Source: Candidatus Limnocylindrales bacterium
GTDB lineage: Bacteria > Moduliflexota > Moduliflexia > Moduliflexales > JAUQPW01
Assembly: GCA_035559535.1 (NCBI GenBank)
Contig: DATMBG010000043.1
Span: forward strand, 62,001 to 126,000
Length of the DNA: 64,000 nt
Direction of reading: 5' to 3'
Below are positions 11,833-62,924 of this stretch, in pieces. Numbering within the stretch: the stretch's first letter is position 1; every line of letters begins with the position of its first letter. Made by a program: the position numbers and the translations under genes. The notes beneath the pieces were generated by a model that ran no database searches, was not told where the DNA came from, and worked only from the letters and a program-made list of their open reading frames with translations.

Positions 11833-11952
11833 GGGGACAGAAAGATATAAGGACACGGAGTTTTGGGATACGGAGACAGGGGGACGTGGCGACACCGGGC
11901 TATATCCCCAAGTCTCCATGTTTCCCAGTCCCAAGTTCCCGCGTTTCCATAC
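11833..11952. repeat. mirrored octad array, 15 words, between czcB and czcA
   Basis: Exactly fifteen 8-base words: a purine arm (GGGGACAG, AAAGATAT, AAGGACAC, GGAGTTTT, GGGATACG, GAGACAGG ...) and a pyrimidine arm (TCCCCAAG, TCTCCATG, TTTCCCAG, TCCCAAGT, TCCCGCGT ...). It fills the intercistronic gap. Confidence 0.8.
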
Positions 11953-11969
11953 CCCTGCATTGTGAAGTT

Positions 11970-14900
11970 ATGTGGGCTAAAATTATCGAGTTTTCACTTA
12001 AAAATAAACTATTTGTTCTGATAACAGCAGGTATTACTCTCATCTGGGGTTACAACCTTTTCCAGAAGATTCCTGTAGATCTTTATCCGGATATCAATAA
12101 CCCCCGGGTAACCATTTTAACCGAAGCGCCTGGATGGTCTCCTGAGGAGGTAGAGGCTTTAGTGACCTTTCCCCTGGAAAGTGTTTTCAATGGAACCCCC
12201 TTTGTGACCCGGGTTCGCTCTTCTTCGGGAATCGGGATTTCTGTGGTGTTTGTTGAATTTGAATGGGGAACGGATATTTTCAAGGCCCGACAGTTGGTTG
12301 CAGAAAAGCTTCAGACGGTAAAATTACCAGCCGGTGTGGAAGCCCCCTTCATGGCCCCTATTACCTCCAGGTTAGGTGAGATTGTAGAATATGCTCTAGA
12401 AGATAAAACCGGAAAGTATTCCCCCATGGATTTGCGGGATGTAGCGGATTGGATCATTCGGTTTCGGTTAAAATCCATCGGAGGGATTGCCAATGTAATC
12501 AATCAAGGAGGACTTCCCCGGCAGTACCAGGTTCAGGTGAGCCAGGATAAGCTGTTGGGCTATGGACTCAGTTTGATGGAGGTTCGGGAGGCTCTGGAAA
12601 AGGGAAATATGAATGCCTCGGGCGGGTTTCTTTTAACTCCCACCCAGGAATACTTAATCCGAGGGTTTGGGCGTGTTCAGGAGGTAAGTGACATTGAAAA
12701 CACGGTTATCACCACCAAAGAAGGTGGAATACCTGTCTTAATCAAGGATGTGGCCACCGTCAAAATAGCAGGACCTGCCATCCGTCGGGGAGCAGGAACT
12801 TTAAACGGCCAGGAGACGGTATTGGGGAAGATAAGTAAACAACCTGACACCAATACCCTTACTTTGACAAAAAAAATTCTGGAAGCTTTCAAGGAGTTGG
12901 AGAAATCCCTCCCCGAGGGGATTGTTATCAAACCCGAATATCTTCAATCGGACCTCATTGAACGTGCCCTGGCTACCGTCAAAGAAGCTCTCTTAGAAGG
13001 AGGTATTCTGGTCGTTGTTATTATTGTGGTTTTTCTGTTCAATCTTAGAACTTCCCTCATCAGCCTGACCGCGATTCCCCTTTCATTTGTCTTAACCTTG
13101 ATGATTCTCTACGGGTACGGATTGAGTATCAATAATATGACTCTGGCCGGGTTGGCCATTGCTGTAGGAATGGTTGTGGATGATGCCATCATCGATGTAG
13201 AGAACATCTTTCGACGCCTGAGGGAATATTTCTTCGGTACAGATCGGGCAGGAACAGGACAGGTTCCATGCCCTGGGGATACCCATAACAGGGCTTTTAC
13301 GTTACTATCTAAAATGGCCCAAACTCCCGGTGAGGTTGTTTTGAAGGCTTCTAACGAGATTCGAAGCGCAGTCGTCTTCGCGACCCTCATCATCATCCTG
13401 GTTTTTATTCCCCTGTTTACCCTGGAAGGGATTGAAGGTCGATTGTTTTATCCCCTGGGTCTGGCCGTAGTCATTTCTATGGCCGCTTCTCTGCTGGTAG
13501 CCCTGACGGTCACACCGGTGTTGAGCGATTTGATGTTAACAAAACCCAAGTATCTTAACGAACGGGAAAGTCCTCTGGTTCGTTGGCTTAAAAAAAGATA
13601 CCGTTCCACCCTCCATAGGGTCCTTAAAAAACCCAGACAAGTTCTGATTCCCATTATTCTCCTATTTTTAGGTTCGTTGGTTTTAATTCCGTTTATGGGT
13701 CGGGAGTTTCTCCCTATTGTAGACGAAGGGACTTTGTTGGTGAATGCAGTACTACCCCCGGGAACTTCCTTAGAGCAAACTCTGCAGGTCGGAGTACAGA
13801 TTGAGAAGGCTCTCCATGAGTTTCCCGAAGTAGTTTCTACCACTAACCGTCTGGGTCGAGCCGAAGAAGATGAACATGCCGAAGGGGTTAATACCTCTGA
13901 AATTTTGGTAAGTCTCCTCCCGCCAGAAAAACGAAAGCGGTCCCGAGAAGAACTTCTTACTGCCATGCGGGAACGGCTCAAGGAGTTTCCAGGGGTTCTC
14001 ATTACCATCGGACAACCCCTTCAACACCGTATTGATCATTTACTCTCTGGGGTCAATGCCCAGGTTGCCATCAAGCTTTTTGGTAATGATTTGAATGTCC
14101 TTCGGACCAAAGCGGAAGAGATTCATCGGGTTGTTTCTACCGTTCCAGGAGTTGCGGATCTCTTTGTAGAGCAACAGGTGGAGGTACCTCAGCTCAAGAT
14201 TCAGGTTGATCGAAAAGCTGTGGCTCGTTACGGCTTGACTATCGCAGACATCTCCCATTTTATTGAAACCGCTTTTAAAGGAGAAGCGGTAAGCCAGGTT
14301 CTCTTGGGACAACGGCAGTATGATCTGGTTGTGATCCTGGATGAAAAGAGTCGGGCGGACCTGGAAAAGCTCAAGAATCTGATTATACAGACCCCAACGG
14401 GATCTCGGGTTTCTTTGGAACAACTGGCAACGATACAGATAAACACCGGCCCTAATACCATCAATCGGGAAAATGTAGCCCGACGTATAGTGATTCAGAG
14501 TAACGTATCCGGGCGAGATCTGGGAGGATTTGTCCAGGAAGTTCAGCAGAAGATCGCAGATCAGGTAAAGCTCCCGGAAGGTTATTTTATTATCTATGGA
14601 GGGCAATTTGAAAGCCAGCAGCGTGCCTTCAAACGATTGGCTATCGAGTTTGTTCTGGTAACCCTTGTTATGTTCAGCTTGCTGTACATCAGCCTTCGCT
14701 CCGCCCCGCTGGCTATCGCCGTACTCCTGAATCTTCCTTTAGCTGTGGTAGGGGGGATTATCAGTGTATACCTGTCCGGTGGCGTACTTAACGTTTCCTC
14801 CCTGGTAGGTTTTATCTTGCTCTTCGGTATTGCCGTCCGAAATGGAGTACTTATGGTTTCCCATATTAACGATCTCCGATACCACGAGGGATTGGAATTG

Positions 14901-15179
14901 GATAAAGCTATCATACAAGGAGCCGAGGAGCGAATGACGCCGGTGTTGATGACGGCGCTGGCAACGGCTATGGGAATGGTTCCTTTGATCTGGGCACAGG
15001 GATCTGGATCAGAACTTCAGAAGCCTCTGGCTACAGTTATTGTAGGCGGAACCCTCTCGGCAACTGCTCTAACCCTGTTGGTATTACCTGTCTTGTACCG
15101 CCTGATAGAGGGACGTGGAAAGAAGGTAGAAAGTAAAAAGTCAGGAACTGGCGATCAGTTCACAGTTGTTAGCAGATAA
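11970..15179 (+). CDS. czcA: RND heavy-metal efflux pump (CzcA/CusA-like)
   Basis: 1069 residues from ATG 11970 (MWAKIIEFSLKNKLFVLI); upstream frame is repeat DNA. It has the RND layout: TM1, large periplasmic loop (DLYPDINNPRVTILTEAPGW), TM2-6 with AVGMVVDDAIIDVENIFRRL, a second loop, and TM7-12 ending with GIAVRNGVLMVSHINDL and PLATVIVGGTLSATALTLLV. The acidic residues of the TM4 motif serve proton coupling in heavy-metal RND pumps. It works with the adaptor at 10192 and a TolC-type channel to move metal ions from periplasm or cytoplasm to outside. The ribosome site is poor, perhaps because the octad array sits immediately upstream. Confidence 0.93.
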   Translation: MWAKIIEFSLKNKLFVLITAGITLIWGYNLFQKIPVDLYPDINNPRVTILTEAPGWSPEEVEALVTFPLESVFNGTPFVTRVRSSSGIGISVVFVEFEWGTDIFKARQLVAEKLQTVKLPAGVEAPFMAPITSRLGEIVEYALEDKTGKYSPMDLRDVADWIIRFRLKSIGGIANVINQGGLPRQYQVQVSQDKLLGYGLSLMEVREALEKGNMNASGGFLLTPTQEYLIRGFGRVQEVSDIENTVITTKEGGIPVLIKDVATVKIAGPAIRRGAGTLNGQETVLGKISKQPDTNTLTLTKKILEAFKELEKSLPEGIVIKPEYLQSDLIERALATVKEALLEGGILVVVIIVVFLFNLRTSLISLTAIPLSFVLTLMILYGYGLSINNMTLAGLAIAVGMVVDDAIIDVENIFRRLREYFFGTDRAGTGQVPCPGDTHNRAFTLLSKMAQTPGEVVLKASNEIRSAVVFATLIIILVFIPLFTLEGIEGRLFYPLGLAVVISMAASLLVALTVTPVLSDLMLTKPKYLNERESPLVRWLKKRYRSTLHRVLKKPRQVLIPIILLFLGSLVLIPFMGREFLPIVDEGTLLVNAVLPPGTSLEQTLQVGVQIEKALHEFPEVVSTTNRLGRAEEDEHAEGVNTSEILVSLLPPEKRKRSREELLTAMRERLKEFPGVLITIGQPLQHRIDHLLSGVNAQVAIKLFGNDLNVLRTKAEEIHRVVSTVPGVADLFVEQQVEVPQLKIQVDRKAVARYGLTIADISHFIETAFKGEAVSQVLLGQRQYDLVVILDEKSRADLEKLKNLIIQTPTGSRVSLEQLATIQINTGPNTINRENVARRIVIQSNVSGRDLGGFVQEVQQKIADQVKLPEGYFIIYGGQFESQQRAFKRLAIEFVLVTLVMFSLLYISLRSAPLAIAVLLNLPLAVVGGIISVYLSGGVLNVSSLVGFILLFGIAVRNGVLMVSHINDLRYHEGLELDKAIIQGAEERMTPVLMTALATAMGMVPLIWAQGSGSELQKPLATVIVGGTLSATALTLLVLPVLYRLIEGRGKKVESKKSGTGDQFTVVSR

Positions 15180-15246
15180 CCGGCTCGTCTCTAGGGTAGA
15201 GAACCCCCAGAGATCAGCTCTGTTAATAAGGAAAGGAGAAAACACT

Positions 15247-15711
15247 ATGAAGTACTTACAACGATCTAAAATCTACTGCCCATTGATTGTATCAATCCTG
15301 TTTGCATTCAGCCCGGTATTCATCGCCCATTTAACCTGGTCTGCTCAAGAAACCGGTAAGGAAGGCCATACCGAGAAAGCGCCCCATCAGGGTCAACTGT
15401 TGGATACCGGGGAGAAACATGTGGAATTTTTAGTAAAAGGAGGAAAAGAAGTTTACGTCTATCTTTACGATAAAAACCTGAAACCCATTTCAGCGGAAGG
15501 GATCGAAGGAGTCGTTTATTTCAGATTAACAGATAACAGCAGAAGAGAATCCAAACTGGCCCCGGTCAAAGAAAAAGACACAACCTTCCTTAAGGGAAAC
15601 GTAGACCTCGGGACGAAAGATTATAGTGAAGCCGTAGTCAGTTTAAAGAGAGGGGATAAGAAAGAGAATTTAAGGTTCGGCCATCCAGCCGGGCAAGAAC
15701 ATCATCAATAG
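15247..15711 (+). CDS. secreted His-containing protein of the czc operon
   Basis: 154 residues from ATG 15247 (AAGGAG upstream). A signal peptide (KIYCPLIVSILFAFSPVFIA) is followed by HTEKAPHQGQLLDTGEKHVE, a pattern also found at the N-terminus of some CzcB proteins and in metal-binding secreted proteins, and then a beta-rich domain (VYVYLYDKNLKPISAEGIEG). It ends HPAGQEHHQ. It lies between the pump gene and the CzcC-like gene. A periplasmic metallochaperone role is inferred from the His residues and context. Confidence 0.7.
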   Translation: MKYLQRSKIYCPLIVSILFAFSPVFIAHLTWSAQETGKEGHTEKAPHQGQLLDTGEKHVEFLVKGGKEVYVYLYDKNLKPISAEGIEGVVYFRLTDNSRRESKLAPVKEKDTTFLKGNVDLGTKDYSEAVVSLKRGDKKENLRFGHPAGQEHHQ

Positions 15712-15766
15712 AGGTAAATGGTAAGAGGGGATGAAGCCTGCCTTGACCAGGTTAAATTACCGAAAA

Positions 15767-15834
15767 GCCCTAGCGGGGCAACCTGTTTGTTACCCATAGG
15801 GTCCTACTCCCAGATCTTTTAGCTCCGTAGGAGC
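15767..15834. repeat. palindromic modules in the czcA-czcC gap
   Basis: GCCC-TAGCG-GGGC (15767-15779) and GCTCC-GTA-GGAGC (15822-15834), separated by ACCTGTTTGTTACCCATAGG. This layout is seen in intergenic repeats of several bacterial groups and is related to the modules at 7915-8100. Confidence 0.5.
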
Positions 15835-15954
15835 CTCTAAGGTTAAAACCTAATTTGACATTATCGAGCTACTAACCACGGTGGTAACTGAGGCTCTTCC
15901 CCTTGGAATTGGAAGTTATTTAAATAAGGTGTTAAATCAAGGAGGAAAAAAATT

Positions 15955-17472: not shown

Positions 17473-17508
17473 TGAAGCAGCTAATAAAACAATCGAAGAA
17501 CCCTAAAA

Positions 17509-17570
17509 AGTATGGGAGTATGGGGGTGTGGGAGTGTGGGGGTGTCCATACTTCTCCACTCTTCGTGGAT
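17509..17570. repeat. octad array between czcC and the multicopper oxidase gene
   Basis: AGTATGGG, AGTATGGG, GGTGTGGG, AGTGTGGG, GGTGTCCA follow each other in strict 8-base register. A short pyrimidine-rich answer (CTTCTCCACTCTTC) comes after. Same word type as 43211-43314 and 62781-62924. Confidence 0.75.
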
Positions 17571-17628
17571 AAATAACATCCATAACTTACAAGAAAATGT
17601 AAAAGTATAGCAAGGAGGAAAATATCCC

Positions 17629-19885: not shown

Positions 19886-20031
19886 TTGGAGAAAGTATCT
19901 ATAGATAAGGTATCTGCTATACGATACGCACCAAGCTAAGAATAAGAATTAGACCTGGGGTCTAGACACCTCCCTTACCCCCGTGGTATTAAGTTAAGGC
20001 CCCCTTTCCTGACCTTTCCCTGCTCCCCTCA

Positions 20032-29237: not shown

Positions 29238-29633
29238 ATGAAACACTTTTTAACTCTTAGTTTAGTCACCCTATTGGGGTTGGCCCTCAGTGGGGCTATT
29301 CTGGCCCAACCCACCACTCAGGAATCCCAACCTTCTGGACAATCTAGAGGAATGATGATGGACCAGGGGATGATGAGGGATATGGGAACGATGATGGGGG
29401 CCATGTCTTCCATGATGAAACAGATGTCGGAGATGATGAGCAGTGGAAAGATGATGAACCAGGATATGATGAAACAGATGTCTGAATATATGAACCAGAT
29501 GACTCAGATGATGAAACAGATGTCGGAGATGATGAGCAGCGGAAAGATGATGAACCAGGATATGATAAAACAGATGAAAGAACGGATGTCAGAGATGCAC
29601 AAGGGAATGTCGGAGATGATGAAGCAACAATAA
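29238..29633 (+). CDS. secreted Met-rich protein with internal duplication
   Basis: 131 residues: signal peptide (LVTLLGLALSGAILAQ), then an almost entirely Met/Gln/Ser helix. The segment QMSEMMSSGKMMNQDM occurs twice, 32 residues apart; the DNA copies 29412-29480 and 29508-29576 differ at only two bases, so the duplication is recent. It shares GMMRDMGTMM-x2-MSSM with the protein at 19421. Methionine-only clusters favour Cu(I) or Ag(I) binding in the periplasm (inferred). A stem-loop (29653-29680) follows. Confidence 0.75.
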   Translation: MKHFLTLSLVTLLGLALSGAILAQPTTQESQPSGQSRGMMMDQGMMRDMGTMMGAMSSMMKQMSEMMSSGKMMNQDMMKQMSEYMNQMTQMMKQMSEMMSSGKMMNQDMIKQMKERMSEMHKGMSEMMKQQ

Positions 29634-39540: not shown

Positions 39541-39652
39541 AGTGAAGGGTGAAAAGGGGCTCTTTATCCTTATCTTACCCCTTCACTCTCTCACTCCCGC
39601 GTAACTACCTTCCTGGGCTCCCTCACTACCTTATCACTTTACCCCCTCATTG
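39541..39652. repeat. octad array, 14 words, between kinase and regulator genes
   Basis: Short purine start (AGTGAAGG, GTGAAAAG), then pyrimidine-rich 8-base words (TCTTACCC, CTTCACTC, TCTCACTC, CTACCTTC, CCTCACTA, CTTTACCC ...) reaching the kinase stop codon region. Confidence 0.65.
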
Positions 39653-41752
39653 AACAGGTAATTTTACCACAAATTGACTTCCCTTACCGATTTGACTGCT
39701 AACTTCAATGGCCCCGCCATGTCCTTCGATAATACGATGGCAAATGGCCAGGCCAAGCCCTGTTCCCTCTTTTTTGGTGGTAAAAAATGGATTAAACAAT
39801 TTATCTATATGATCTGCAGGAATTCCAACCCCGGTGTCTATAAATTTTATACTTAAATACGTTCCGGTTTTATCGGGATCATTCTCCAGAGTCGTAGAAA
39901 CAACTAAACTTCCACCTTCCGGCATGGCCTGGATGGCATTTAAAAAAAGGTTTAAAAAAACCTGTCGAAGTTGTTCTGCATCGGCATGGATCAAAGGTAA
40001 ATTTTCTTCAAAGTCCAGGATTACTTTTATCTGTTCGGGAATCCCCTCGGCTTTAATCAAAGCATAGGTTTTCTCCAGGATCTTATTGATTTCACAAAGG
40101 GTGATATTTTTCTTGAAGGGACGTGCATAATCCAGGAACTGAGAAACTACATGATTCAATCGATCGACCTCTTCAATAATAATACTTAAAAACTCTTTTC
40201 TTTCCTCTATGGAAGGTTCTACTTGAAGATATTGGGCTGCACCTTTAATAGCTCCCAGGGGGTTTCTTATTTCATGGGCCAGACCCGTAGCCATCTCTCC
40301 TAAGGCCGCTAAACGATCTTTCCTTTTCATGGTTTCGTAGATTTTGTAATTCTCAATAATGATAGCCGCCTGATTGGCAACGGTCATAAGCAAGGCAATC
40401 TCGTGACTGGAGTAAGCCTCTTCAGAACCTGCGTCTTTAAGGTTCCAGAGTCCCAGGACCCTGTCTTGTCTACACATCAGAGGGATGCAAACCTGGGCTT
40501 CCATTTTCTTCAACAACTCACAAATGGACTTAATAACAGCCGGAGAAGGGAGGGAGGGAGTGGAGGAACGAGTCAAAGAAGATGGGTTGTTGGTATATCC
40601 TTTTCCCCCCTCTTCTCCTCTCCCGTTCTCCATCTCGTAAGTTCTCAACTCCCGTTCCAGTTCTTCCAGAATCAAGGCACCTCTTTTCTCCTTGATATAC
40701 TCGGTGAGAACTTTAGTCTCAAGGAATTTGGGAATTCTCTCCCGATGATCGCCGATTGCTTCTACCAGCTTAAACAGATCCTCCCGTTCATCCAAAACGT
40801 AAACCGATGCATGGGTTATACGGGGAAACTCTTTAATCGTGCTGATAATCAGGCTAAAGAGTTCATCCACCGTTAAAACCCGGGCCATTTTTCGACTCAA
40901 GGTATTCAAAATATTTTGGAGATTATAACTTTCCCTGAGAAAAATACGATTTGCCCGGTCCTGGACTTTCAATTTAATCGGTTCGTAAAGAAGTAAAATC
41001 AGTAAAGAGGCAATAAAAGTGTTAAAGATAGCAAGTCCCGGCTTGTTCCCAATCCATAACACCAGAGCTCCATAGATACCTCCAGTTATAGAAGCCAGGG
41101 TAACAAGCACGATTCCCCTTCCGATGATTTCGTGGAGATCCAGTAATCGATACTTTACAATAGATTGAGAGATAAAATACATATAAACCATAACGGCCAG
41201 GTTTCCCAACTGGGGAAAGTCAATTCCTATTCCCGGTAAAAAATCTGTGATTCCGGCAGTTGTGGCAATAACTCCACCGATTATCATGTATTTGAGCTTA
41301 GCCCTTTCTGTAGTTGATTCTGTTTCAGAATACCGTTTATAGATCAAATACAGGCAAAGATAAAGAACCGGAAAGAAATAACAAACCGTTATGATACTCC
41401 ACTCTCGCATGAAAAAGAAGGGAGTCAGAACGGTTATGAAGAGACCGATACTGATTCCGTAGGTATATCTTAAAAGTCTCCATTTTATGGGATTTCGAGC
41501 CGAAAGAAATACAAGGGTAAAGTGAAGCGCGCTGGGAGGAATAAAAAGAGAACCGAGAAAAAGAATCCGGTACCAGAAATCACTTTGGGTGAGCTTATAA
41601 AGGAAAAATCCTAGATTCCAGACAAAAATATTAAAGCTGAGATAGGAGAAAGTTCGGTGAAGTTGGTTCTTTCGATCCTTAAGGATAAAGTAAACAGCAA
41701 AGCAGAGATTTACGATAGCTGCGATGAGAGCGCTCTGGACTTGAAAAGTCAT
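39647..41752 (-). CDS. sensor histidine kinase with 7TM N-terminus and GAF domain
   Basis: About 701 residues from ATG 41752 (MTFQVQSALIAA); upstream codons come from a repeat array. Order: seven to eight N-terminal membrane helices (7TM-type sensor), a GAF domain, then HisKA with GEMATGLAHEIRNPLGAIKG (phospho-acceptor His), the N-box FLNLFLNAIQAMPEGG, G1 FIDTGVGIP, and GTGLGLAICHRIIEGHGG. The GAF part carries an in-frame 32-residue low-complexity insert encoded by twelve 8-base words (40542-40637). It presumably phosphorylates the downstream NtrC-type regulator. Signal unknown. Gene order suggests a link with the phenylacetate-CoA ligase upstream. Confidence 0.9.
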   Translation of the reverse strand: MTFQVQSALIAAIVNLCFAVYFILKDRKNQLHRTFSYLSFNIFVWNLGFFLYKLTQSDFWYRILFLGSLFIPPSALHFTLVFLSARNPIKWRLLRYTYGISIGLFITVLTPFFFMREWSIITVCYFFPVLYLCLYLIYKRYSETESTTERAKLKYMIIGGVIATTAGITDFLPGIGIDFPQLGNLAVMVYMYFISQSIVKYRLLDLHEIIGRGIVLVTLASITGGIYGALVLWIGNKPGLAIFNTFIASLLILLLYEPIKLKVQDRANRIFLRESYNLQNILNTLSRKMARVLTVDELFSLIISTIKEFPRITHASVYVLDEREDLFKLVEAIGDHRERIPKFLETKVLTEYIKEKRGALILEELERELRTYEMENGRGEEGGKGYTNNPSSLTRSSTPSLPSPAVIKSICELLKKMEAQVCIPLMCRQDRVLGLWNLKDAGSEEAYSSHEIALLMTVANQAAIIIENYKIYETMKRKDRLAALGEMATGLAHEIRNPLGAIKGAAQYLQVEPSIEERKEFLSIIIEEVDRLNHVVSQFLDYARPFKKNITLCEINKILEKTYALIKAEGIPEQIKVILDFEENLPLIHADAEQLRQVFLNLFLNAIQAMPEGGSLVVSTTLENDPDKTGTYLSIKFIDTGVGIPADHIDKLFNPFFTTKKEGTGLGLAICHRIIEGHGGAIEVSSQIGKGSQFVVKLPVQ
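40542..40637. repeat. mirrored octad array inside the kinase gene
   Basis: Twelve 8-base words (GGAGAAGG, GAGGGAGG, GAGTGGAG, GAACGAGT ... CCCCCTCT, TCTCCTCT, CCCGTTCT, CCATCTCG), 96 bases in total, hence exactly 32 codons in frame. Confidence 0.75.
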
Positions 41753-41758
41753 AGCTTT

Positions 41759-41814
41759 CAGAATCCAGAAATCAGAATTCAGGATGTAAATTTCTGGATT
41801 CTGATTTCCGGTTT
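41759..41814. repeat. mirrored heptad array between ligase and kinase genes
   Basis: CAGAATC, CAGAAAT, CAGAATT, CAGGATG | TAAATTT, CTGGATT, CTGATTT, CCGGTTT: eight words of exactly 7 bases forming a quasi-palindrome up to the ligase stop codon. Confidence 0.75.
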
Positions 41815-43205
41815 TAACGTTTATCAATAACCCTTCGCGCTTTGAACTGGGTCCGCTCTAGTTTTCCTGGCTCTATCAACTCAACTCTCGTTCGAACTCC
41901 AAGGCGGACCCGTAGCCTGGTTTCCAGGGTTTCCCGTAATCTCTCCAGTATCTGGGGATTCTCTTCAGCTTCCTTTTGGAAGCGGGGGCTATACTCGGCC
42001 TGGACGGTCAGTTCGTCCATGGTCCGTTCCCGGGTAATGAAAATACGAAACTCTTCACCAAATCCCTCGGTGGCCCTTAGTACATCCTCAATAGCACTGG
42101 GATAAATGTTTTCGCCGCGAACAATGAACATGTCATCAATCCGACCGTATATCCCTTTGGGGAGTCTGGGATACGTCCTTCCACAACTGCAGGGTTCCTG
42201 GGTCCAGGTAGATAAATCTCCGGACCAGAAGCGAATCATAGGTTGAGAAGTCCGCTCCAGGTGGGTATAGACGGGAACACCTTCTTTTCCATAGGGGACG
42301 ACCTGCCGGGTATCCGGATCGATGAGTTCTGTGTAAACAATATCCTGCCACAGGTGCATTCCCTGACGATCTGCACATTCCCCATTACTCATCCAGGGAG
42401 TCATCTCTGCCGTACTTCCCGTATCAATACAAATAGCCCCGTAAGTTTCTTCTATGAGTTTCTTGGTGGAGGGGATTCCGGCTCCGGGCTCTCCAGAAAA
42501 GAACATGATTTTCAATCCGAAGTCCCTGGGATCGTATCCGGCTTGCCGGGTTTTCTCGGCAATATATAAAGCATAGGAAGGGGTCCCATAAAAGGCAGTT
42601 GGTTTGATGTCTCGCATCCATTCAATTCCCCGTTCGGTTTGCCCGGGAACTCCGGCTCCGAAGGGAAAACAGGTCAAACCAAGTCGCTCGGCGCCAACGA
42701 GAGCCCCCCAACTTCCCAAATAAAGGCTAAAAAAAGAGCCGATAAAAACGGTATCCCCTGGTCGTAATCCCATTCCCCACATGACCCGCGCGTGGGCATT
42801 GGCAATTCGTCTCCAATCGTCCCGACTAATGGCAAAAGCCGTTGGTTTTCCCGTTGTTCCAGAAGTCCCATGGATTCTTAACACCTGCTCCCGGGGTATA
42901 CAGAGATAGGATCCAAAAGGTGGGTGCTCCATCTGATCCTTTCGAATTTCCTGCTTAGTCACTACGGGCATCTTGTGGAAATCTTCCAGAGTTTTAATAT
43001 CTCCCGGTTGAAGTCCAGCTTCATCCCATTTTTTACGATAGAAAGGAGCGTGTTGATAGGCATAGGTAATTTGAGCCTGAAGCTTTTTCAAAATGATTTT
43101 CTCCCGTTCTTCAGGATCCATGGTTTCTTCTCGTGGGAACCAATATTTCTGATGCAACTCCGGCAAATAAGTTTCATCATAAATAGGAGGCCAGTTCATA
43201 CTCAT
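41814..43205 (-). CDS. paaK: phenylacetate-CoA ligase family (AMP-forming)
   Basis: About 463 residues from ATG 43205 (MSMNWPPIYDETY; ATG 43199 also possible); the upstream frame is translated repeat DNA and is not trusted. AMP-binding motifs: LRIHGTSGTTGKPTAF, FYGTPSYALYIAEKTRQAG, and the C-terminal subdomain IYGRIDDMFIVRGENIYPSA. It activates phenylacetate or a similar aryl acid to its CoA thioester in the cytoplasm. No other paa genes are present, so the substrate is uncertain. No good ribosome site is visible, as the array at 43211-43314 occupies the leader. Confidence 0.88.
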   Translation of the reverse strand: MSMNWPPIYDETYLPELHQKYWFPREETMDPEEREKIILKKLQAQITYAYQHAPFYRKKWDEAGLQPGDIKTLEDFHKMPVVTKQEIRKDQMEHPPFGSYLCIPREQVLRIHGTSGTTGKPTAFAISRDDWRRIANAHARVMWGMGLRPGDTVFIGSFFSLYLGSWGALVGAERLGLTCFPFGAGVPGQTERGIEWMRDIKPTAFYGTPSYALYIAEKTRQAGYDPRDFGLKIMFFSGEPGAGIPSTKKLIEETYGAICIDTGSTAEMTPWMSNGECADRQGMHLWQDIVYTELIDPDTRQVVPYGKEGVPVYTHLERTSQPMIRFWSGDLSTWTQEPCSCGRTYPRLPKGIYGRIDDMFIVRGENIYPSAIEDVLRATEGFGEEFRIFITRERTMDELTVQAEYSPRFQKEAEENPQILERLRETLETRLRVRLGVRTRVELIEPGKLERTQFKARRVIDKR

Positions 43206-43210: not shown

Positions 43211-43314
43211 AGTAGGGAAGTGTGGAAGTGTGGAAGTATGGGGGTATGGGGGTATGGAAGTATGGGTGTAAATTCTCCCATACCCCCATACTTCCACACT
43301 TCCACACCCCTCTA
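43211..43314. repeat. mirrored octad array, 13 words
   Basis: Thirteen 8-base words: AGTAGGGA, AGTGTGGA (x2), AGTATGGG, GGTATGGG, GGTATGGA, AGTATGGG | TGTAAATT | CTCCCATA, CCCCCATA, CTTCCACA (x2), CCCCTCTA. It spans from the RecG stop to the ligase start. Confidence 0.8.
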
Positions 43315-43315: not shown

Positions 43316-45865
43316 TTACCCTACGCTGATCAGCTCCAATTTCTTAGCCCAACGTTTTTCTAGAGCCCATTTAAGTTTTTGATGTTCGGGTCGGGAAAGG
43401 GTAGGATCTTGTCGGACAATCCGAAAGGCTTCTTCTCGGGCCAGTTCCAGAATTTTCGCATCGCGAAGGATATTGGCTACCCTCAGGTCGGGCAAACCCG
43501 ATTGCTTGGTACCGAAAAATTCTCCAGGCCCTCGAATTTCCAGATCTCGTTCCGCGATGATAAATCCATCGGTAGTTTCGATCATGGCATTAAGACGCCT
43601 CTTAGCCTCTTCGCCAACAGGTTGATGGGCCAGAAGCAGGCAGTAGGATTTATAAGGACCTCGCCCGACACGACCCCGAAGTTGATGGAGTTGAGAAAGA
43701 CCGAATCGTTCTGCGTGCTCTACCAACATCACAGAGGCATTGGGCACATCGATCCCTACTTCTAAAACCGTTGTAGAAACCAAGATTTGAATCTCCCGGT
43801 TTTTAAAAGCCGTCATGATCTGTTCCTTTTCTTCACTACTCATTCGCCCATGGACTAATCCTACTTTGAATTGGGGAAAGATTTCGGTGCTTAATTGATT
43901 TGCCATTTCTGTTGCGGCTTTCAAGTCTAAGATTTCAGATTCCTCCACCAGCGGATAGATCACATAAGCCTGACGGCCCTGTTCTACTTCCTGTCTGATC
44001 CGGTTATAGACCCGATCCCGGTCCCGATCATAAAATAAAAGGGTTGTCACCGGAGTTCGACCCGGAGGTAACTCATCGATAATGGATACATCCAAATCCC
44101 CATAAATTGTTAGTGAAAGCGTCCTGGGAATCGGAGTTGCCGTCATGATAAGAACATCCGGTTGATATCCCTTTTCTTTTAGAGTGGCTCGCTGCATAAC
44201 CCCAAATTTATGCTGCTCATCGATAATAACAAGTCCCAATTTCTGGAACTCTACATCTTTCTGAATTAAGGCGTGGGTTCCGATAATTATCTGAGTCCGT
44301 CCTTCCCTTATGTTGGACAGGTATTGCTCTCGTTCCTTCTTCCGAAGCTTGCTGGTCAGCAGGCAGGTCGTAAGTCCTAGTTTTTCTACAAACCCGGAGA
44401 TATTTCGATAGTGTTGTTCCGCCAGGATTTCTGTGGGAACCATGATGGCTCCTTGATAGCCGGCTTCTACAGCCCAGAGCAGCGCAATAAGGGCCACAAT
44501 TGTTTTTCCGGAACCCACATCTCCTTGAAGCAGCCGGTTCATGGGATGGACGGATTGCATATCCCTTTTAATTTCAGAAAGCACACGCTCCTGGGCCTTG
44601 GTCAATTGATACGGAAGTAAAGCTCTCAGGCGCTGCTCCAGTTCTCCGGTAAACTGAAACTGAATTCCTTTCTGTTTGGTGGCAACCCCACGCTTCTTCA
44701 AACCAAGTCCCAGTTCCAGGAGAAAAAATTCGTCGAAAACCAATCGGCGATGGGGTTCGGAAGTTCCTCGATTCAGTTTTTCAATGTCATCCTCCTCCTC
44801 GGGAAAATGGACCCGACGTATTGCTTCCGGCAGATCCAACAGGCCGTACTTTTCTTTGATTCCAGGCGGAAGTATTTCTTCCAAAGCATCTGCGTAGCGA
44901 TCTACGATGGACTTCATAACCCCTCGTAAAGTCTTTTGGTAGAGTCCTTCACTGAGGGGATAGATGGGTACAATGCGTCCCATATGGACATGGGTCGTTT
45001 GCCGGGCTCCTGCCCCAACAGACAGGTCGGGTTCTTCCTCATCCAGGATTTCATATTCCGGTTGGATCATTTCCCTGGGAGCATAGCGGAAGCTGGTTTG
45101 AAACCCTCCTTTACTGAATTTAACTTTTCCATAGAGGATGACTTTGCTTCCTTTTTTAAAGATCTGTTTTAAATAAGGCTGATTAAACCATTTAGCCACC
45201 AGGGTGCCGCTATCATCTCCGATGAAAGCCTCGAAGATTTTGGTTTTCTGTCGAGGTGTTGTAACCACGCCGGTATTTTTAACTTCTCCATAAACTGTTT
45301 CCCACGCCTCGGCTTCCAGCGCTGCAATGGTTTTAATATGCCTTCTATCTTCATAACGTCGGGGAAGAAAGAAAAGAGCATCTTCAACGGTCGTCAGGTT
45401 AAGCTTCTTTAAAATTTGGGCCCGCTTTGGGCCCACTCCCTTGATATACTGAAGTGGAGTACTTAAGCTAAAGGGGGAGACATCGAAATCATCATTTTGA
45501 GACTCTGAGGCGTTCTGAGGCCCGGAGGTGTAGGGAGATTGGGATACGGGGCTTACTTTTTCGTCTCCGTATCTTCGGGTCTCCTCCTCCCCACGTCCCG
45601 AAATGGCGTCTATCACCTGTAAGGCTTCGGTGATAATCTCTATTTTTCTCTGTCGAGGAACCGTATCATATCCTTGGAACAATCCTTCTAAGACCTGAAG
45701 TTTTTGTTGAATTCCAGAAGGAAGGGATTGGATATCTAAATTTCGAATACAACTTAAAACAGTTTTCTCCAGATCTTGAACGCGCTCTATGTTGGCGAAG
45801 TTATTTTTAGCAGCATATTGAAGGGGTTTTTGTATAATAGCCAGAAAAGCTTCAAATAAAATCAA
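43316..45865 (-). CDS. recG: ATP-dependent DNA helicase RecG
   Basis: 849 residues, longer than the usual 690 or so because of an N-terminal helical extension. The start appears to be TTG 45865 with GGAAAG before it; no suitable ATG exists. Motifs: wedge-domain start LQYIKGVGPKRAQILKKLNL, RLLQGDVGSGKTIVALIAL (Walker A), IIIDEQ-type box VIIDEQHKFGV, MTATPIPRTLSLTIYGD, LVHGRMSSEEK and HQLRGRVGRGPYKSYC. It unwinds stalled replication forks and Holliday junctions. An octad array (45524-45603) is translated between the extension and the wedge (around SGRGEEETRRYGDEK), making a low-complexity linker. Confidence 0.93.
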   Translation of the reverse strand: MILFEAFLAIIQKPLQYAAKNNFANIERVQDLEKTVLSCIRNLDIQSLPSGIQQKLQVLEGLFQGYDTVPRQRKIEIITEALQVIDAISGRGEEETRRYGDEKVSPVSQSPYTSGPQNASESQNDDFDVSPFSLSTPLQYIKGVGPKRAQILKKLNLTTVEDALFFLPRRYEDRRHIKTIAALEAEAWETVYGEVKNTGVVTTPRQKTKIFEAFIGDDSGTLVAKWFNQPYLKQIFKKGSKVILYGKVKFSKGGFQTSFRYAPREMIQPEYEILDEEEPDLSVGAGARQTTHVHMGRIVPIYPLSEGLYQKTLRGVMKSIVDRYADALEEILPPGIKEKYGLLDLPEAIRRVHFPEEEDDIEKLNRGTSEPHRRLVFDEFFLLELGLGLKKRGVATKQKGIQFQFTGELEQRLRALLPYQLTKAQERVLSEIKRDMQSVHPMNRLLQGDVGSGKTIVALIALLWAVEAGYQGAIMVPTEILAEQHYRNISGFVEKLGLTTCLLTSKLRKKEREQYLSNIREGRTQIIIGTHALIQKDVEFQKLGLVIIDEQHKFGVMQRATLKEKGYQPDVLIMTATPIPRTLSLTIYGDLDVSIIDELPPGRTPVTTLLFYDRDRDRVYNRIRQEVEQGRQAYVIYPLVEESEILDLKAATEMANQLSTEIFPQFKVGLVHGRMSSEEKEQIMTAFKNREIQILVSTTVLEVGIDVPNASVMLVEHAERFGLSQLHQLRGRVGRGPYKSYCLLLAHQPVGEEAKRRLNAMIETTDGFIIAERDLEIRGPGEFFGTKQSGLPDLRVANILRDAKILELAREEAFRIVRQDPTLSRPEHQKLKWALEKRWAKKLELISVG
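45524..45603. repeat. mirrored octad array inside recG
   Basis: GGAGGTGT, AGGGAGAT, TGGGATAC, GGGGCTTA | CTTTTTCG, TCTCCGTA, TCTTCGGG, TCTCCTCC, TCCCCACG, TCCCGAAA. It shares words with the czcB-czcA array (GGGATACG, TCTCC). The translated segment is an acidic/Ser-rich linker. Confidence 0.7.
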
Positions 45866-45884: not shown

Positions 45885-45933
45885 TCTGTTGTCCGTTATG
45901 GCTCTTCAAGAGCAACGGACAACAGACAACAGA
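45885..45933. repeat. mirrored heptad array, 7 words
   Basis: TCTGTTG, TCCGTTA, TGGCTCT | TCAAGAG, CAACGGA, CAACAGA, CAACAGA. A 49-base hairpin just upstream of recG, made of the same words as the insert in the TlpA-like gene. Confidence 0.8.
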
Positions 45934-46541: not shown

Positions 46542-46626
46542 TGAGATGGTGAGGTAAAGGGGGGTGGTGGGGTCTCATCTCCTATCCTGTTCCTATCCCC
46601 TCACCATCTCACTGCTTCACCACCCC
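46542..46626. repeat. mirrored octad array before the WVPGYW gene
   Basis: TGAGATGG, TGAGGTAA, AGGGGGGT, GGTGGGGT | CTCATCTC, CTATCCTG, TTCCTATC, CCCTCACC, ATCTCACT, GCTTCACC: purine words mirrored by pyrimidine words. Confidence 0.7.
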
Positions 46627-54692: not shown

Positions 54693-54891
54693 AAAGAAAA
54701 CTCCTATATTCTTCTAGTATACTTCGTGGGAATTATAGAATAAAACTGCGTGAGACCCAGTTACAACTATAAACGATAATTCAATACAAAAATTCTTGCA
54801 AGTGGAAGATGTAAGAGATTCTAGAATTGATAATTGACAATTAACCTTAGATAGGTGATAATTTTCCATGGAGGGGGTTATAAAGATTTAC

Positions 54892-56118: not shown

Positions 56119-56152
56119 GTGAAGAACTTTACCCGAATAATCCTTTTTACCT

Positions 56153-59275: not shown

Positions 59276-59471
59276 CCCCTTAACCTTCAGAGGTCCTTTC
59301 TGTAAAAATATCTTGATCCTGTTTCCCCCAAGGTATACGATGGATCATCCCAAACAGGGGAAACCCCTAACTTGTTAAAAAGACGGTCCCGGAAGGACAG
59401 GGTTAATGAAAGAATTTTATAGCACGAAAGTAACCTGAAAGAATAAATAGAAAGAATAAATAAAGGAAAGT

Positions 59472-60239
59472 ATGTCTAAACATTTGAATAACTCACATAA
59501 ACTGCCAGAATCTCCCGAAATTAGTATTATTGTTCCTTGCTTAAATGAAGAGCAAAATATTCCCATACTGGTACAAAAATTGGAATCGGTTATTCAGCAC
59601 TACGATTTGTCTGCGGAAATTCTTATTGTAGACGATTGTAGCGATGATTATACCTTTCGAGAAGCTTTTATCTTACAAAATGAACATCCCAGAGTTAAAG
59701 CCCTGCATAAAGGACTACCTCGAGGGATAGGCCATGCCATACGATTTGGTATCCAACATGCCCGAGGACGAATGGGAGTTGTGGTGATGGGAGATTGTGT
59801 GGATCCGCTTATGGCCATTGCAGATTTCAGGAAAAAAATCCTCGGTGAAGGTTATCACCTGGCTTTGCTTTCCAGATATTTGGACCCTGAGGATTCTGCC
59901 AATATTCCTTTCTCCTACAAATTTTATCAATGGTGGTATCGATTTTTTTGCCGTTCCCTGATTGGTATAACCATTAAAGATATTACATATGCCTTTCGGG
60001 GTTTTGATATTGAATATATCCGGCAGCTTAATCTGGAATCCGGCGGGTTTGAAATTTCCCCGGAAATCACCTTGAAAACCTGGCTATCTGGGGGAAGAAT
60101 TTGTGAGATTAAAGGGCGTCAAGGCCGTAGAATTGCAGGAGAATCCAAATTTCTCTTTTCTAAACAGGGGTTTGGATATGCCCGGATCTTGATTAAAGGT
60201 ATTATCAAGAAGCGGACCGGTCGATGGATAGGATCCTGA
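59472..60239 (+). CDS. family 2 glycosyltransferase
   Basis: 255 residues; AAAGGAAAG upstream. ISIIVPCLNEEQNIPILVQ, ILIVDDCSDDYTF and the acceptor-side motif IKGRQGRRIAGESKF. The position usually holding DxD is MGDCVDP, so one Asp is displaced, though a D-x2-D remains. Resembles polyprenyl-phosphate-sugar synthases. It overlaps the next gene, a GT-C-like transferase, by 16 bases, so it may supply its donor. Confidence 0.85.
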   Translation: MSKHLNNSHKLPESPEISIIVPCLNEEQNIPILVQKLESVIQHYDLSAEILIVDDCSDDYTFREAFILQNEHPRVKALHKGLPRGIGHAIRFGIQHARGRMGVVVMGDCVDPLMAIADFRKKILGEGYHLALLSRYLDPEDSANIPFSYKFYQWWYRFFCRSLIGITIKDITYAFRGFDIEYIRQLNLESGGFEISPEITLKTWLSGGRICEIKGRQGRRIAGESKFLFSKQGFGYARILIKGIIKKRTGRWIGS

Positions 60240-61801
60240 CTGTGGTGTGGAAAGTAAAGAAATTCATCTTATCTTTCCCTGGTTTGATTGCATCAACTAA
60301 GGATCGGAGCCGGAGCTGGCTCGGATTGATGTCCGTCCTACTGATTACGATCTATGTCCATGCTCCGTCCCTATATCTGGGCTTTACAGGTGACGATTTT
60401 CAGTGGTGGCAACAGGCTCGTATGGCACTGGACAAGCCTTCTCTGTTATTAGCTCCGGGAGGGGGTTACCGTCCTGTCAATACCTGGACGCTTTCCCTTA
60501 ATCATCTCCTGTTCGGTACAAAACCCCTGGGCTATCATGCCACCAATCTTTTCCTTCACCTTCTCTGCGGGGTACTTTTCTGGTTTCTCCTGGGCCGTTT
60601 TTCCCTTTCTGTCCAGGTCCGTTGGATAGTTGTTATTCTCTGGCTTTGCTCCCCTTACTCTCTGGAACCGGCGCAGATTGTCAATACCCGTTATGATCTC
60701 ATTCTACCTCTCTGCTGGCTTGCTTTGGCACTGATCTGGCCTGGACCCAGGGAATCCTGGAATCGAGGCCGCCTGGCAGGTGTTATAGTCCTTGCCGGCC
60801 TTACCCTCTTTACGGTTGAAACCTGGGTGGTACTTCCCGCTTTTGTCCTCTGCTTCGATCTTTGTTTGAGCCAGATCCACCTGCGCAGGGCGCTCCTTCA
60901 TACGCTGTGGGCGGGAATAGCACCGTTGATGTATCTCTTTATTTATTTTCTCCATCCTCCCATAGACAGGAGTATTTATTACGCGGGGGGTTTGAAAGCG
61001 GCCGCTAAAGTACCCCATGCCTGGGCCGTCTTCTCTAACCTGACCTTTCTCCATCCCTTGGAATTCCCCTTTGGAAGTAGGGAAGTACTTTCCTTGCTGA
61101 TGATGGGTTCCCTGGCCTGGTTCGGTTGGCGACGATCTCAGCCCTTGATGGGAATTGGATTTGCTTTTTTTCTGTTGCCTTTTCTTCCTATCCTCCCCGT
61201 AGGATTCATGACCACCCGCTATACGTCTATCCCGCTCATGGGATTTTTGATGATGGTTTGCGCCGGGGTACGAGAACTCCTCCTATCTTTGAAAGGTTGG
61301 CAGCAACGGGTAGCCAAAGTCCTTGTTGGGGCTGTGGTGTTGCTTGAGTTCATTGCAAACTTAGCAGGGTTACAGGGAGATATGATAGATGCCCAGAGAT
61401 ATACGGACCTCCATACCAGATTACTCACAGAAGCCCAGGCGTTTCTACCTTCCCTTCCCCGTGATCGCTTGATCGTCGCCGTCCGTCTGGAAAATGAGAA
61501 TCCACTCTTCGAACTTGCTCTGGATTCCAAAGGAATTCCTAAGCTTTACTATCCACGTCATCTGGATCCCTACGGACTTATTGACTGGGCTGCACTTCTG
61601 TCCTATGTCCTCGAGCCTGTTGGTGGACCCCTGTATGGGATAGCTCCCTTAGACGAAACCAAAACTCCTAACTATACCGTTGTAGGTCATATCCAGGGGG
61701 GTTTCGTCATATTACCTACGGACGCCCCTACGGCCTATGATGCGGCCTTGATCTGGCAAAACCAACACCGTTACGTTCGCTTCTTAAAACCCTGGCCATA
61801 G
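60224..61801 (+). CDS. GT-C-like membrane glycosyltransferase
   Basis: 525 residues with about ten membrane segments. The first periplasmic loop carries YLGFTGDDFQWWQQARMAL (an Asp pair typical of GT-C enzymes) and GGGYRPVNTWTLSLNHLLFG. The C-terminal soluble portion is compact (IVAVRLENENPLFELALDSK, LDETKTPNYTVVGH). It probably moves a sugar from a lipid carrier to an unknown acceptor outside. It overlaps the GT2 gene upstream. Confidence 0.78.
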   Translation: MDRILTVVWKVKKFILSFPGLIASTKDRSRSWLGLMSVLLITIYVHAPSLYLGFTGDDFQWWQQARMALDKPSLLLAPGGGYRPVNTWTLSLNHLLFGTKPLGYHATNLFLHLLCGVLFWFLLGRFSLSVQVRWIVVILWLCSPYSLEPAQIVNTRYDLILPLCWLALALIWPGPRESWNRGRLAGVIVLAGLTLFTVETWVVLPAFVLCFDLCLSQIHLRRALLHTLWAGIAPLMYLFIYFLHPPIDRSIYYAGGLKAAAKVPHAWAVFSNLTFLHPLEFPFGSREVLSLLMMGSLAWFGWRRSQPLMGIGFAFFLLPFLPILPVGFMTTRYTSIPLMGFLMMVCAGVRELLLSLKGWQQRVAKVLVGAVVLLEFIANLAGLQGDMIDAQRYTDLHTRLLTEAQAFLPSLPRDRLIVAVRLENENPLFELALDSKGIPKLYYPRHLDPYGLIDWAALLSYVLEPVGGPLYGIAPLDETKTPNYTVVGHIQGGFVILPTDAPTAYDAALIWQNQHRYVRFLKPWP

Positions 61802-61829
61802 CTTAACCCTCCTTGAAATTTTTGGCAAA

Positions 61830-62696
61830 TTACTTATTGATGTATTTACCGATCAATAACTCAAGGTTCATAAGGGTTTGGGAAGGAGCCAGTTTGGGTG
61901 ATGTAATCAGCGCGTCTTTCAGAGCCGTCGCACAAGGGCAGGTCCGCTCTTTAGGTATCCTGGCGATCGCTCCTCTGATGATTTTTTTAGCAGTTCCTAC
62001 ATTTTTTAATAAATTGGCGATGATGGCTTCGGCGGTTACATCCTCCTCGGTTTCATGCCAGCAATCATAATCGGTTACCAGAGCCATAGTTGCGTAGCAA
62101 ATTTCTGCTTCCCTGGCCAGCTTGGCTTCTGGAATATTGGTCATTCCGATAACATCTACTCCCCATTGCCGATATATTCTGGATTCTGCCCGGGTAGAAA
62201 ACTGTGGCCCTTCAATGCAGAGATAGGTACCTCCCTGATGCATGGTGGCCCCGGCTTCTATCCCGGCCTCATATAAGATCTTGCTTAGAACCGGACATAC
62301 AGGGTCTGCAAAGGCAATATGTGCCACGAACCCCTCTCCAAAAAAAGTACTAACCCGACTTTTGGTTCGATCAAAAAACTGGTCTGGAATGACAATGTCA
62401 AGGGGTTTAATATCTTCCCGCATACTTCCCACGGCACTGGCCGAAAGTAACCACTCTACCCCTAATTTTTTAAAACCGTAAATATTAGCCCGAAAATTCA
62501 GTTCGCTGGGAAGAATTCGATGCCCCCGTCCATGTCTTGGAAGGAAAGCAATTCGAATCCCATCCAAAGTTCCCAGAACATATTCATCCGAGGGGTTTCC
62601 AAAGGGAGTATCTATCTCTACCGACTCGATATCGGTAAGTCCTTCCATTTCATATAAACCACTTCCTCCAATAACACCTATTTTGACTTCAGCCAT
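61830..62696 (-). CDS. mtnP: S-methyl-5'-thioadenosine phosphorylase
   Basis: 288 residues from ATG 62696 (MAEVKIGVIGGSGLYEMEG; AAGGAG upstream); the frame upstream is translated repeat DNA. Motifs: LPRHGRGHRILPSELNFRAN, SASAVGSMREDIKPLDIVIP, TYLCIEGPQFSTRAES and VIGMTNIPEAKLAREAEICY. The C-terminus has CPCATALKDALIT. It phosphorolyses methylthioadenosine to adenine and 5-methylthioribose-1-phosphate (methionine salvage). Convergent with the GT-C gene, with only 28 bases between stops. Confidence 0.93.
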   Translation of the reverse strand: MAEVKIGVIGGSGLYEMEGLTDIESVEIDTPFGNPSDEYVLGTLDGIRIAFLPRHGRGHRILPSELNFRANIYGFKKLGVEWLLSASAVGSMREDIKPLDIVIPDQFFDRTKSRVSTFFGEGFVAHIAFADPVCPVLSKILYEAGIEAGATMHQGGTYLCIEGPQFSTRAESRIYRQWGVDVIGMTNIPEAKLAREAEICYATMALVTDYDCWHETEEDVTAEAIIANLLKNVGTAKKIIRGAIARIPKERTCPCATALKDALITSPKLAPSQTLMNLELLIGKYINK

Positions 62697-62780
62697 ATTC
62701 TTTTCTCCTTTTCTAAATATACCTATACTTTGCCTTTTCTCGTAAGTTATTGATTTTATGTATCCACGAAGGGATAGGAA

Positions 62781-62924
62781 AGTATGGGGGTGTGGGAGTA
62801 TGGGAGTGTGGAAGTATGGGAGTATAGGAGTATATACTTCCATACTTCCATACTTCCATACTCCCCTACCCCCCTACTCCCATACTCCCATACCTCCATA
62901 CCCCCACCCTCCCATACTCCCACT
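62781..62924. repeat. mirrored octad array, 18 words, upstream of mtnP
   Basis: Eighteen 8-base words: AGTATGGG, GGTGTGGG, AGTATGGG, AGTGTGGA, AGTATGGG, AGTATAGG, AGTATATA | CTTCCATA (x3), CTCCCCTA, CCCCCCTA, CTCCCATA (x2), CCTCCATA ... CTCCCACT. The centre (AGTATATACT) joins the purine and pyrimidine arms. It is the longest array here and lies between mtnP and ligA. Confidence 0.85.

Follow-up and report, generated by a model that had tools for sequence, protein, structure and literature searches.

Mirrored arrays of octad and heptad words in intergenic DNA of a bacterial genome

Word arrays in the window and in the source genome

The window, that is the whole stretch of 64,000 nucleotides analysed here, carries among others HlyD-type and AcrB-type genes, a histidine kinase gene, recG and an AhpC/TSA gene. 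In or between its genes lie thirteen tracts that an initial annotation had described as arrays of 8- or 7-nucleotide words (Table 1); their coordinates and word splits match that description. Each tract was tested by a shuffle keeping its purine/pyrimidine (RY) string, with P values uncorrected for the tracts having been picked by eye. The three F1 octad arrays gave a strong signal, as did each of the five heptad tracts (P 0.0004-0.0074), and these eight can be retained, whereas three tracts were borderline and two (39541-39652 and 46542-46626) did not rise above the shuffle. The tract at 40542..40637 is probably coding sequence rather than an array. Curated Rfam families gave no match in the window at gathering thresholds.

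Table 1. Tracts of the window, their periodicity under the RY-preserving shuffle, their gene context and the corresponding site in the sister species G001
Tract	Position	Strand	Periodicity	Gene context	Sister species
Heptad array (CCTTCTG type), single arm	1825..1859		lag-7 0.71, P 0.007	gap 1813-1860	about 93% identical
Mirrored heptad array (AAGGTGA / TTAACCT)	3568..3620		P 0.0006		array common to both genomes
Heptad array (TCTGTTG type)	5082..5123		P 0.0004	within AhpC/TSA gene, N-terminal to the domain (begins at residue 95)	98% identical
F2 octad array (GGGACRCG / CGTCTCC type)	11833..11952		lag-8 0.47, borderline (P 0.04)	gap of HlyD-type and AcrB-type genes	colinear, 88% identity vs 94% in flanks
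Short F1 octad array	17509..17570		P 0.006	outer-membrane efflux / multicopper oxidase gene gap	in a 141-bp stretch wholly missing
Degenerate pyrimidine-rich octad-like tract	39541..39652		not significant (P 0.11)	sigma-54 response regulator / histidine kinase gene gap	119-bp MITE-like insert
Weak octad-like tract	40542..40637	-	borderline (P 0.02)	within histidine kinase gene, ORF 39647-41827	free of indels
Mirrored heptad array (CAGAATC / CTGATTT)	41759..41814		P 0.004	where two gene ends overlap	86% identical
F1 octad array	43211..43314		lag-8 match 0.71, P 0.0002	fills gap, recG stop (43316) to AMP-binding gene start (43205)	contigs C143 and C84 both end within array
F2-like octad tract	45524..45603		borderline (P 0.03)	within recG reading frame, N-terminal part, upstream of the wedge domain (begins at residue 138)	18-bp frame-keeping insertion
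Mirrored heptad array (TCYGTTG / CAACRGA)	45885..45933		P 0.003		about 95% identical
Purine-then-pyrimidine hairpin-like tract	46542..46626		octad period unsupported (P 0.19, best lag 5)		99% conserved
F1 octad array, G-rich then C-rich arm	62781..62924		lag-8 match 0.78, P 0.0002	upstream of phosphorylase-superfamily gene (61830-62696, -)	F2 mirrored array instead, flanks 91-93% identical

The same periods were found on a larger scale. A scan of 464 kb of the same genome gave 24 strong segments at lag 8 and 11 at lag 7, compared to none in Markov shuffles. No strong segment was observed at lags 5, 10, 11 and 13. Multiples of 7 and 8 aside, the remaining lags gave 0-5 segments, the exceptions being 7 segments at lag 15 and 6 at lag 30. 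Mirrored arm pairs occurred at lag 7 (n=8), lag 8 (n=12) and lag 14 (n=1), at no other lag and never in shuffles; 14 is itself a multiple of 7. Mirrored word arrays in the source genome are real, and their periods are 7 and 8, essentially none other. The initial annotation had tied its observation to an excess of lag-7/8 autocorrelation over shuffled sequence; this excess was found, and the array observation is therefore not refuted. The observation is partly confirmed: not all of the listed tracts pass the RY-preserving shuffle, and three are intragenic.

Grammar, polarity and distribution of the octad arrays

Octads use two vocabularies, F1 (RGTRTGGR) and F2 (about CGGGGACR), and heptad arrays mostly have one array-specific word each, so that several word vocabularies do coexist in one mirrored period-7/8 family, as had been proposed. 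An F1 array is composed of a G-rich RGTRTGGR arm, a short core and a C-rich arm, in which this word stands on the opposite strand; the term 'mirrored' is correct in the sense of an inverted repeat. In the source genome 46 F1 arrays were found in 1.36 Mb, compared to 0 in shuffles, which extrapolates to ~200 per genome. The announced order, a purine-rich arm followed by its pyrimidine-rich mirror, is strictly kept: the G-rich arm came first ('+-') 54 times and the reverse order ('-+') 0 times. Because the hairpin is its own reverse complement, this is a true polarity, the same from either strand. The core is most often 10 nt long and commonly near NGTAAATTCT, and cores recur within a genome, both in the source genome and in a Chloroflexi genome. 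Arm length is broad (2-15 words, commonest 5-7).

The claim that words keep register holds best in F1 and less well elsewhere. Within the F1 word, A or G is free at positions 1, 4 and 8, whereas the G and T positions are fixed. At positions 1 and 4 the choice does not depend on that in the neighbouring word, and the two positions are mutually independent within a word. Position 8 is an A in 33% of words, interrupting the GGG run, with slight clustering only. Deamination was considered as the source of the A/G variation and rejected, no consistent sequence context being seen when the word was inspected by eye.

F1 arrays lie in 36 co-directional, 7 convergent and 1 divergent gaps, against 724/134/141 background gaps (P 0.01 when gaps are counted, 1e-5 when bases are); gene calls for this count were made with array sequence down-weighted. 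The described placement, mostly in gaps between co-directional genes, is supported genome-wide; tracts 40542-40637, 45524-45603 and 5082-5123 are inside predicted genes. F1 arrays begin close to stop codons and are also placed before gene starts. In the source genome 16% of arrays have an edge ≤3 nt from an open-frame stop codon, compared to 1.7% of random positions; in the Chloroflexi genome the figure is 38%, with random values of 2-3% across both genomes.

Bacteria of several other phyla likewise carry F1 arrays throughout their genomes. Among other records, from several phyla, G-rich-first polarity was counted 24 vs 0; this count excludes two arrays of contig L125, a contig of the sister species G001. 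The Chloroflexi genome gave 20 vs 0, its arrays being compact (about 3 + 3 words), and arrays from Bacteroidota are nearly uniform AGTATGGG. Ten viral contig records carry the F1 word, with no mirrored pairs among them. A plasmid origin was rejected, as a plasmid search with the 62781 array gave no match. The same word in the same polarity across phyla argues for a shared cause, spread or mechanism.

Conserved sites and rewritten words in a sister species

Array flanks in the sister species are ~93% identical to those of the source genome. The orthologous-gap comparison suggested in the initial annotation showed array presence and absence in both directions, with six gaps lacking an array in one of the two species. 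F1 sites mostly persist, but almost all their words have changed, and at two sites one species carries F1 and the other F2. Of 18 sites common to both species, most have unrelated words: the best shared run is 15.7, compared to 12.7 for unrelated arrays, and 14% of arms exceed the 95th percentile. The words are rewritten much more quickly than the neighbouring genes change. Heptads a few kb from F1 sites are 79-99% identical between the two species. Conservation declines from the outside of arrays inwards, for which loss of register could be an alternative source.

Known relatives and possible origins

Among known bacterial repeats of period 7 are the STRR heptads of cyanobacteria. In Brasilonema and Nostoc we found heptads of variable words (e.g. 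GTCATTR, GTCCTTT), some loci having an opposed second arm; they differ from F1 by their period of 7 and by being often single-armed or having a different word in the second arm. Arrays of TAACTGA heptads occur in Beggiatoaceae, cyanobacteria and Bacteroidetes, intergenic and close to start codons (MacGregor 2015, PMC4679880). Like F1, they are arrays of an identical short word in distant phyla; unlike F1, they are direct repeats of a single word, with one indirect repeat noted, and have period 7.

The closest relatives are the G-rich heptads described by Rehm et al. (2015, PMC4692102), GGGAATC in Xanthomonas and GGGGA(C/T)T in Nostoc PCC 7120. As described there, they are genome-wide and mostly intergenic, lie between aligned ORFs and rarely between divergent ones, and are close to stops in sense orientation and to starts in antisense orientation; GGGAATC forms 70-75 convergent pairs per Xanthomonas genome, and 83% of sites are kept between two species with extensive variation in length and sequence. 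The mirrored grammar had been presented as one that was not recognised; these pairs, with the same gene-context preferences in that description, are a precedent for it. F1 shares with the heptads, as that paper presents them, the preference for gaps between aligned ORFs over divergent ones, the convergent arm pairs, the G-rich strand near a sense-strand stop, and a gene context that is kept while sequence varies between close species. It differs from that description in its unit (8 nt RGTRTGGR, with three free A/G positions, compared to 7 nt GGGNATC / GGGGAYT), in being mostly convergent pairs, in arms with no four-unit preference, and in its vocabulary replacement, core and multi-phylum spread. 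F1 arrays are best read as an octameric variant of the Xanthomonas and Nostoc G-rich heptads, as far as these are described.

The role of the heptads is left open at the end of that paper (PMC4692102), and F1 arrays bear on the function and origin of bacterial heptad and octad word arrays. The genus offers sister species, array number is high, the random A/G positions can serve as bar codes for tracking how words get written, and vocabularies are replaced at the same site; together these make the writing mechanism directly testable.

Selection on an RNA element is one possible explanation: a hairpin between cistrons would block exonucleases, be a processing site or uncouple downstream translation. 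Transcript folding does predict strong hairpins for two F1 arrays (z -8.0 for 62781..62924 and -11.9 for 43211..43314; the F2 array 11833..11952 gave -4.8), arrays sit tight behind stops and ahead of starts and avoid divergent gaps, and sites persist through word turnover, including an F1/F2 swap in the same gap. However, the variable positions bear no mark of the RNA-level role suggested in the initial annotation (91 G.U vs 84 A.C on the transcript strand, P 0.65), and selection for RNA pairing was dropped since there is no such strand bias. The 5′ and 3′ arms do not differ in composition, and the six array-free gaps also speak against it. The two arms of an array complement each other, on average, no better than they do arms taken from elsewhere (own-arm rank 0.50), so that compensatory pairing between arms was dropped as well. 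We hold an RNA element to be doubtful. A selected DNA element, either a tandem site at which a protein would read RGTRTGGR from both sides at 8-bp intervals or a G-quadruplex, appears unlikely. It would fit the position-specific A/G freedom beside fixed G and T, the compact arrays of the Chloroflexi genome and the GGG at 8-nt spacing where position 8 is a G; against it stand the frequent A at this position, the variable arm length and the several sites missing in one sister species. Selection for G4 was rejected, as position 8 interrupts the GGG run.

The constant polarity, and the independent random A/G at exactly three template-T positions, would be accounted for by a word-writing end repair, in which an enzyme extends 3′ break ends from a fixed 8-nt template TCATACCT, inserting A or G opposite template T, and the two ends are then sealed; this would be a bacterial counterpart of telomere addition at breaks. 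So would the little common word order between arrays, the lack of a clear target duplication and the wholesale vocabulary replacement at a site. Yet the reverse-transcriptase domain PF00078 is absent from all five carriers searched (G000, G001, G041, G042 and G043), and a reverse-transcriptase writer was rejected for this reason. Copying is indicated by the cores that recur within a genome and by the variants shared from arm to arm; the arrays of Bacteroidota are nearly uniform, and heptads with array-specific words are left unaccounted for. Fully independent de novo words were demoted to a rival because larger samples revealed clustering of rare variants and sharing between arms; we give this word-writing a slim chance. 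Slimmer still is that of an unrecognised multi-phylum activity that would use a fixed template, with A or G opposite T, to write G-rich octads on 3′ ends of DNA and so close breaks in gene gaps with opposed word arrays; this would be a telomere-addition-like repair with no recognisable reverse transcriptase. REP/REPIN-like or MITE-like elements moved by a transposase are highly improbable. The arrays do resemble REP and REPIN as dispersed multicopy intergenic palindromes, patchily distributed and present or absent in sister species, but they consist of tandem words, whose order varies among arrays, with no fixed REP sequence and no RAYT gene. The RAYT / Y1 transposase (PF01797) had no match in G000 and G001, control genomes being positive, and a RAYT/REPIN origin was rejected accordingly. 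The arrays have no conserved outer termini, empty sites show no target duplication at array edges, and no terminal inverted repeats with target-site duplication indicative of a MITE or an IS-borne minisatellite were found. Least probable is an artefact of composition or misassembly: the shuffle left part of the listed tracts non-significant or borderline and G001 contigs end at arrays, but the F1 count far from shuffles, the recurrence of this grammar in independently assembled genomes from several phyla and the partial conservation across sister species all speak against it.

Our preferred reading, with about an even chance of being right, is that the arrays are intergenic DNA hairpin minisatellites, tolerated in tight gaps, whose words are rewritten through slippage and copying between arms. 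Slippage from the 3′ end of the G-rich strand would lengthen arms in 8-nt steps, fold-back template switching would let the two arms copy each other, and short tracts may be exchanged between arrays. Insertions would survive mainly in tight gaps, sparing reading frames and promoters, and the RNA hairpin would mostly be a side effect, setting neighbouring cistrons apart. The slippage or templated-copy origin considered in the initial annotation gains from rare word variants, which cluster within arms and across both arms: single-change variants were adjacent in 19 cases vs 5.6 expected, and in opposite arms of the same array in 32 vs 19.3 (P 0.0025). Plain slippage, however, predicts similar neighbours, a prediction at odds with the independence of A/G at positions 1 and 4, both between neighbours and within a word; the own-arm rank of 0.50 also speaks against it. 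Nor does the minisatellite reading account for free positions 1, 4 and 8 with a fixed remainder, and in two phyla arrays sit closer to stop codons than passive tolerance would obviously predict. Word runs common to both arms of one array were found in 12/48, compared to 3.1 expected. Between different arrays, shared word runs with a score ≥32 numbered 54 vs 29 expected, an excess of which a word-junction rule, not exchange, may be a partial source.

Word arrays and the anatomy of F1

On re-inspection, the tract coordinates of the initial annotation were correct. In 464 kb of the source genome (G000), 24 lag-8 and 11 lag-7 segments were detected, compared to 0 in shuffles; mirrored arm pairs, also 0 in shuffles, were confined to period 7, period 8 and, in one case, period 14. 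The tracts at 39541 and 46542, listed initially as octad arrays, failed a purine/pyrimidine-preserving shuffle; since tracts had been picked by eye, single-tract P values are uncorrected for that choice. The existence of several vocabularies was confirmed: octads split into F1 (RGTRTGGR) and F2 (approximately CGGGGACR), and most heptad (7-base word) arrays have their own private word.

A 1.361-Mb sample of the genome, chosen mostly without regard to arrays, carried 46 F1 arrays, which extrapolates to ~190 per genome; Markov-shuffled sequence gave none, and reversed-word controls rarely matched the two-word pattern. The order G-rich arm, core, C-rich arm was found in 54/54 opposed F1 pairs of a wider sample, and the C-rich-first order in 0. 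The core is most commonly exactly 10 nt long, often with a sequence near NGTAAATTCT. Word positions 2, 3, 5, 6 and 7 are 85–96% fixed; positions 1, 4 and 8 carry A or G at roughly 2:1, in either direction. These A/G choices are mutually independent within a word (chi-square 3.6, 4 df), and those at positions 1 and 4 do not depend on the neighbouring words either; at word junctions a position-8 A seldom precedes a position-1 G. Such nearly random choices imply that turnover is fast or copying loose.

Co-directional gaps house 36 of the 46 arrays, convergent gaps 7 and divergent gaps 1; the remaining 2 are within genes (background gaps: 724 co-directional, 134 convergent, 141 divergent). Many begin a few bases from a stop codon, and they frequently extend nearly to the following start codon, as predicted by our own simple gene caller. 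Location between genes, proposed initially, holds for most F1 arrays; predicted genes contain the tracts at 40542, 45524 and 5082.

Turnover between sister species

Flanks aligned between the source genome and a sister species of the same genus (G001) are ~93% identical. In the window and on contig C12, most heptads align colinearly, as do most F2 arrays and the remaining degenerate octads, with ~70–99% identity. F1 sites are mostly kept with changed words: at most of 18 shared sites, partly selected through F1 matches in either species, words were no more alike than between unrelated arrays. For the two outermost words A/G agreement was 0.76 and 0.67, dropping to ~0.5 inside; this drop could partly be register loss. 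Some gaps are nearly empty in G001 yet occupied by an array in G000, and others the reverse, differences that may be gains or losses; no target duplications were seen at array-free sites. All closely compared genomes are metagenome assemblies, and because that of G001 breaks at arrays, its array counts and some absences are uncertain.

Replaced arrays, and other repeats and loci
Location	Source genome	Sister species
Window 62781-62924	F1 array	Mirrored F2 array
Contig C7, L182:13089	F1 array	Mirrored F2 array
C12:227757	F1 array nested in F2-like array	F2-like array without F1
Window 39541-39652	Tract	119-bp MITE-like insert on contig C143, ends TTGTAAAGTTAA / TTAACTTTACAAGGTA
Window 7894-8263; C43 46212-46579	Ends resembling TTGTAAAGTTAA / TTAACTTTACAAGGTA	
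Window 8020-8059, ~32097; C43 ~42769-42883, 45540	Dispersed short palindromes, type GTCAAACGAGACGTTTGAC	Several missing
Window 15742-15836	~95-bp dispersed repeat family	Other copies 70-80% identical
Window 29412-29588	96-bp near-identical pair in small ORF, encoding Met-rich ATGATGAAACAG	
Window 61160-61487	328 bp within predicted gene 60329-61801	Missing

How words move

Rare single-change variants were found side by side 19 times (5.6 expected) and in opposite arms of one array 32 times (19.3 expected, P 0.0025), and word runs were common to both arms in 12/48 cases (3.1 expected). Slippage and arm-to-arm copying therefore do happen in F1 arrays, in agreement with the slippage or templated-repair origin initially considered. 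Runs common to different arrays (54, compared to 29 in shuffles) may reflect exchange, or instead the word-junction rule.

An RNA-level role had also been envisaged. Predicted RNA folds have z scores of -8.0 and -11.9 for two F1 arrays of the window and -4.8 for one F2 array; RNA-pairing selection, looked for at variable word positions, was not found. Polarity, site persistence, turnover, variant clustering and gene context are directly observed. Our favoured reading, given an even chance, is a DNA-level account of the arrays as hairpin minisatellites, in which growth would occur at the 3′ end of the G-rich strand, giving the fixed polarity. Arms would be copied from each other by fold-back, words would be exchanged, arrays in promoters and genes would be purged by selection, and the hairpin would be a by-product. 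An origin driven by RAYT, the Y1 transposase of REP/REPIN elements, was considered, and RAYT was searched for and not found in either species; a reverse transcriptase as writer was likewise searched for and found neither in these two nor in three further carriers. Against the 0 matches in G000 and G001, the Y1 transposase search gave 12 in G003, a genome of the same order.

Precedents and other phyla

For the mirrored word grammar, initially not recognised from any known system, the closest precedent in the open-licence papers searched is Rehm et al. 2015 (PMC4692102), which describes G-rich heptads with convergent pairs in Xanthomonas and Nostoc, at sites kept in sister species with extensively variable sequence, and leaves their role unresolved. 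Gene-context rules are the same; F1 differs in being octameric and mostly paired, with degenerate words and vocabulary replacement. We regard F1 arrays as a new variant of these heptads, not a new category, and an earlier octad description may exist outside the open-licence literature. A single heptad word was also found in distant phyla (MacGregor 2015, PMC4679880).

A three-word F1 pattern retrieved many genomes among the matches listed. Two-word matches, set against reversed-word controls, numbered 168/8 (matches/controls) in Chloroflexi, 141/41 in Armatimonadetes, 125/2 in Saprospiraceae, 88/2 in another Bacteroidetes MAG, whose listed words are almost uniformly AGTATGGG, 45/0 in Planctomycetota and 32/0 in Gemmatimonadales. 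Beyond the genus, the G-rich arm came first in 24/24 opposed pairs. Mirrored heptads are present in Armatimonadetes, Anaerolineae and Bacteroidetes records, and the cyanobacterial heptads of Brasilonema and Nostoc have varied words, with opposed arms in some.

The Chloroflexi genome G041 (L305-L324) has the G-rich arm first in 20/20 opposed pairs and a fixed G at position 8; as in G000, whether A or G stands at positions 1 and 4 does not depend on the neighbouring word. At 13/40 edges the first A of the array is the last base of the upstream stop, mostly TGA (TGAGTRTGGG). These arrays are compact, with ~3 + 3 words. Gemmatimonadales F1 arrays (L033, L039, L276, L278, L286, L290) have a different common core, near TTGGGCAGTRTKGT, which suggests that founder cores may be specific to each genome.
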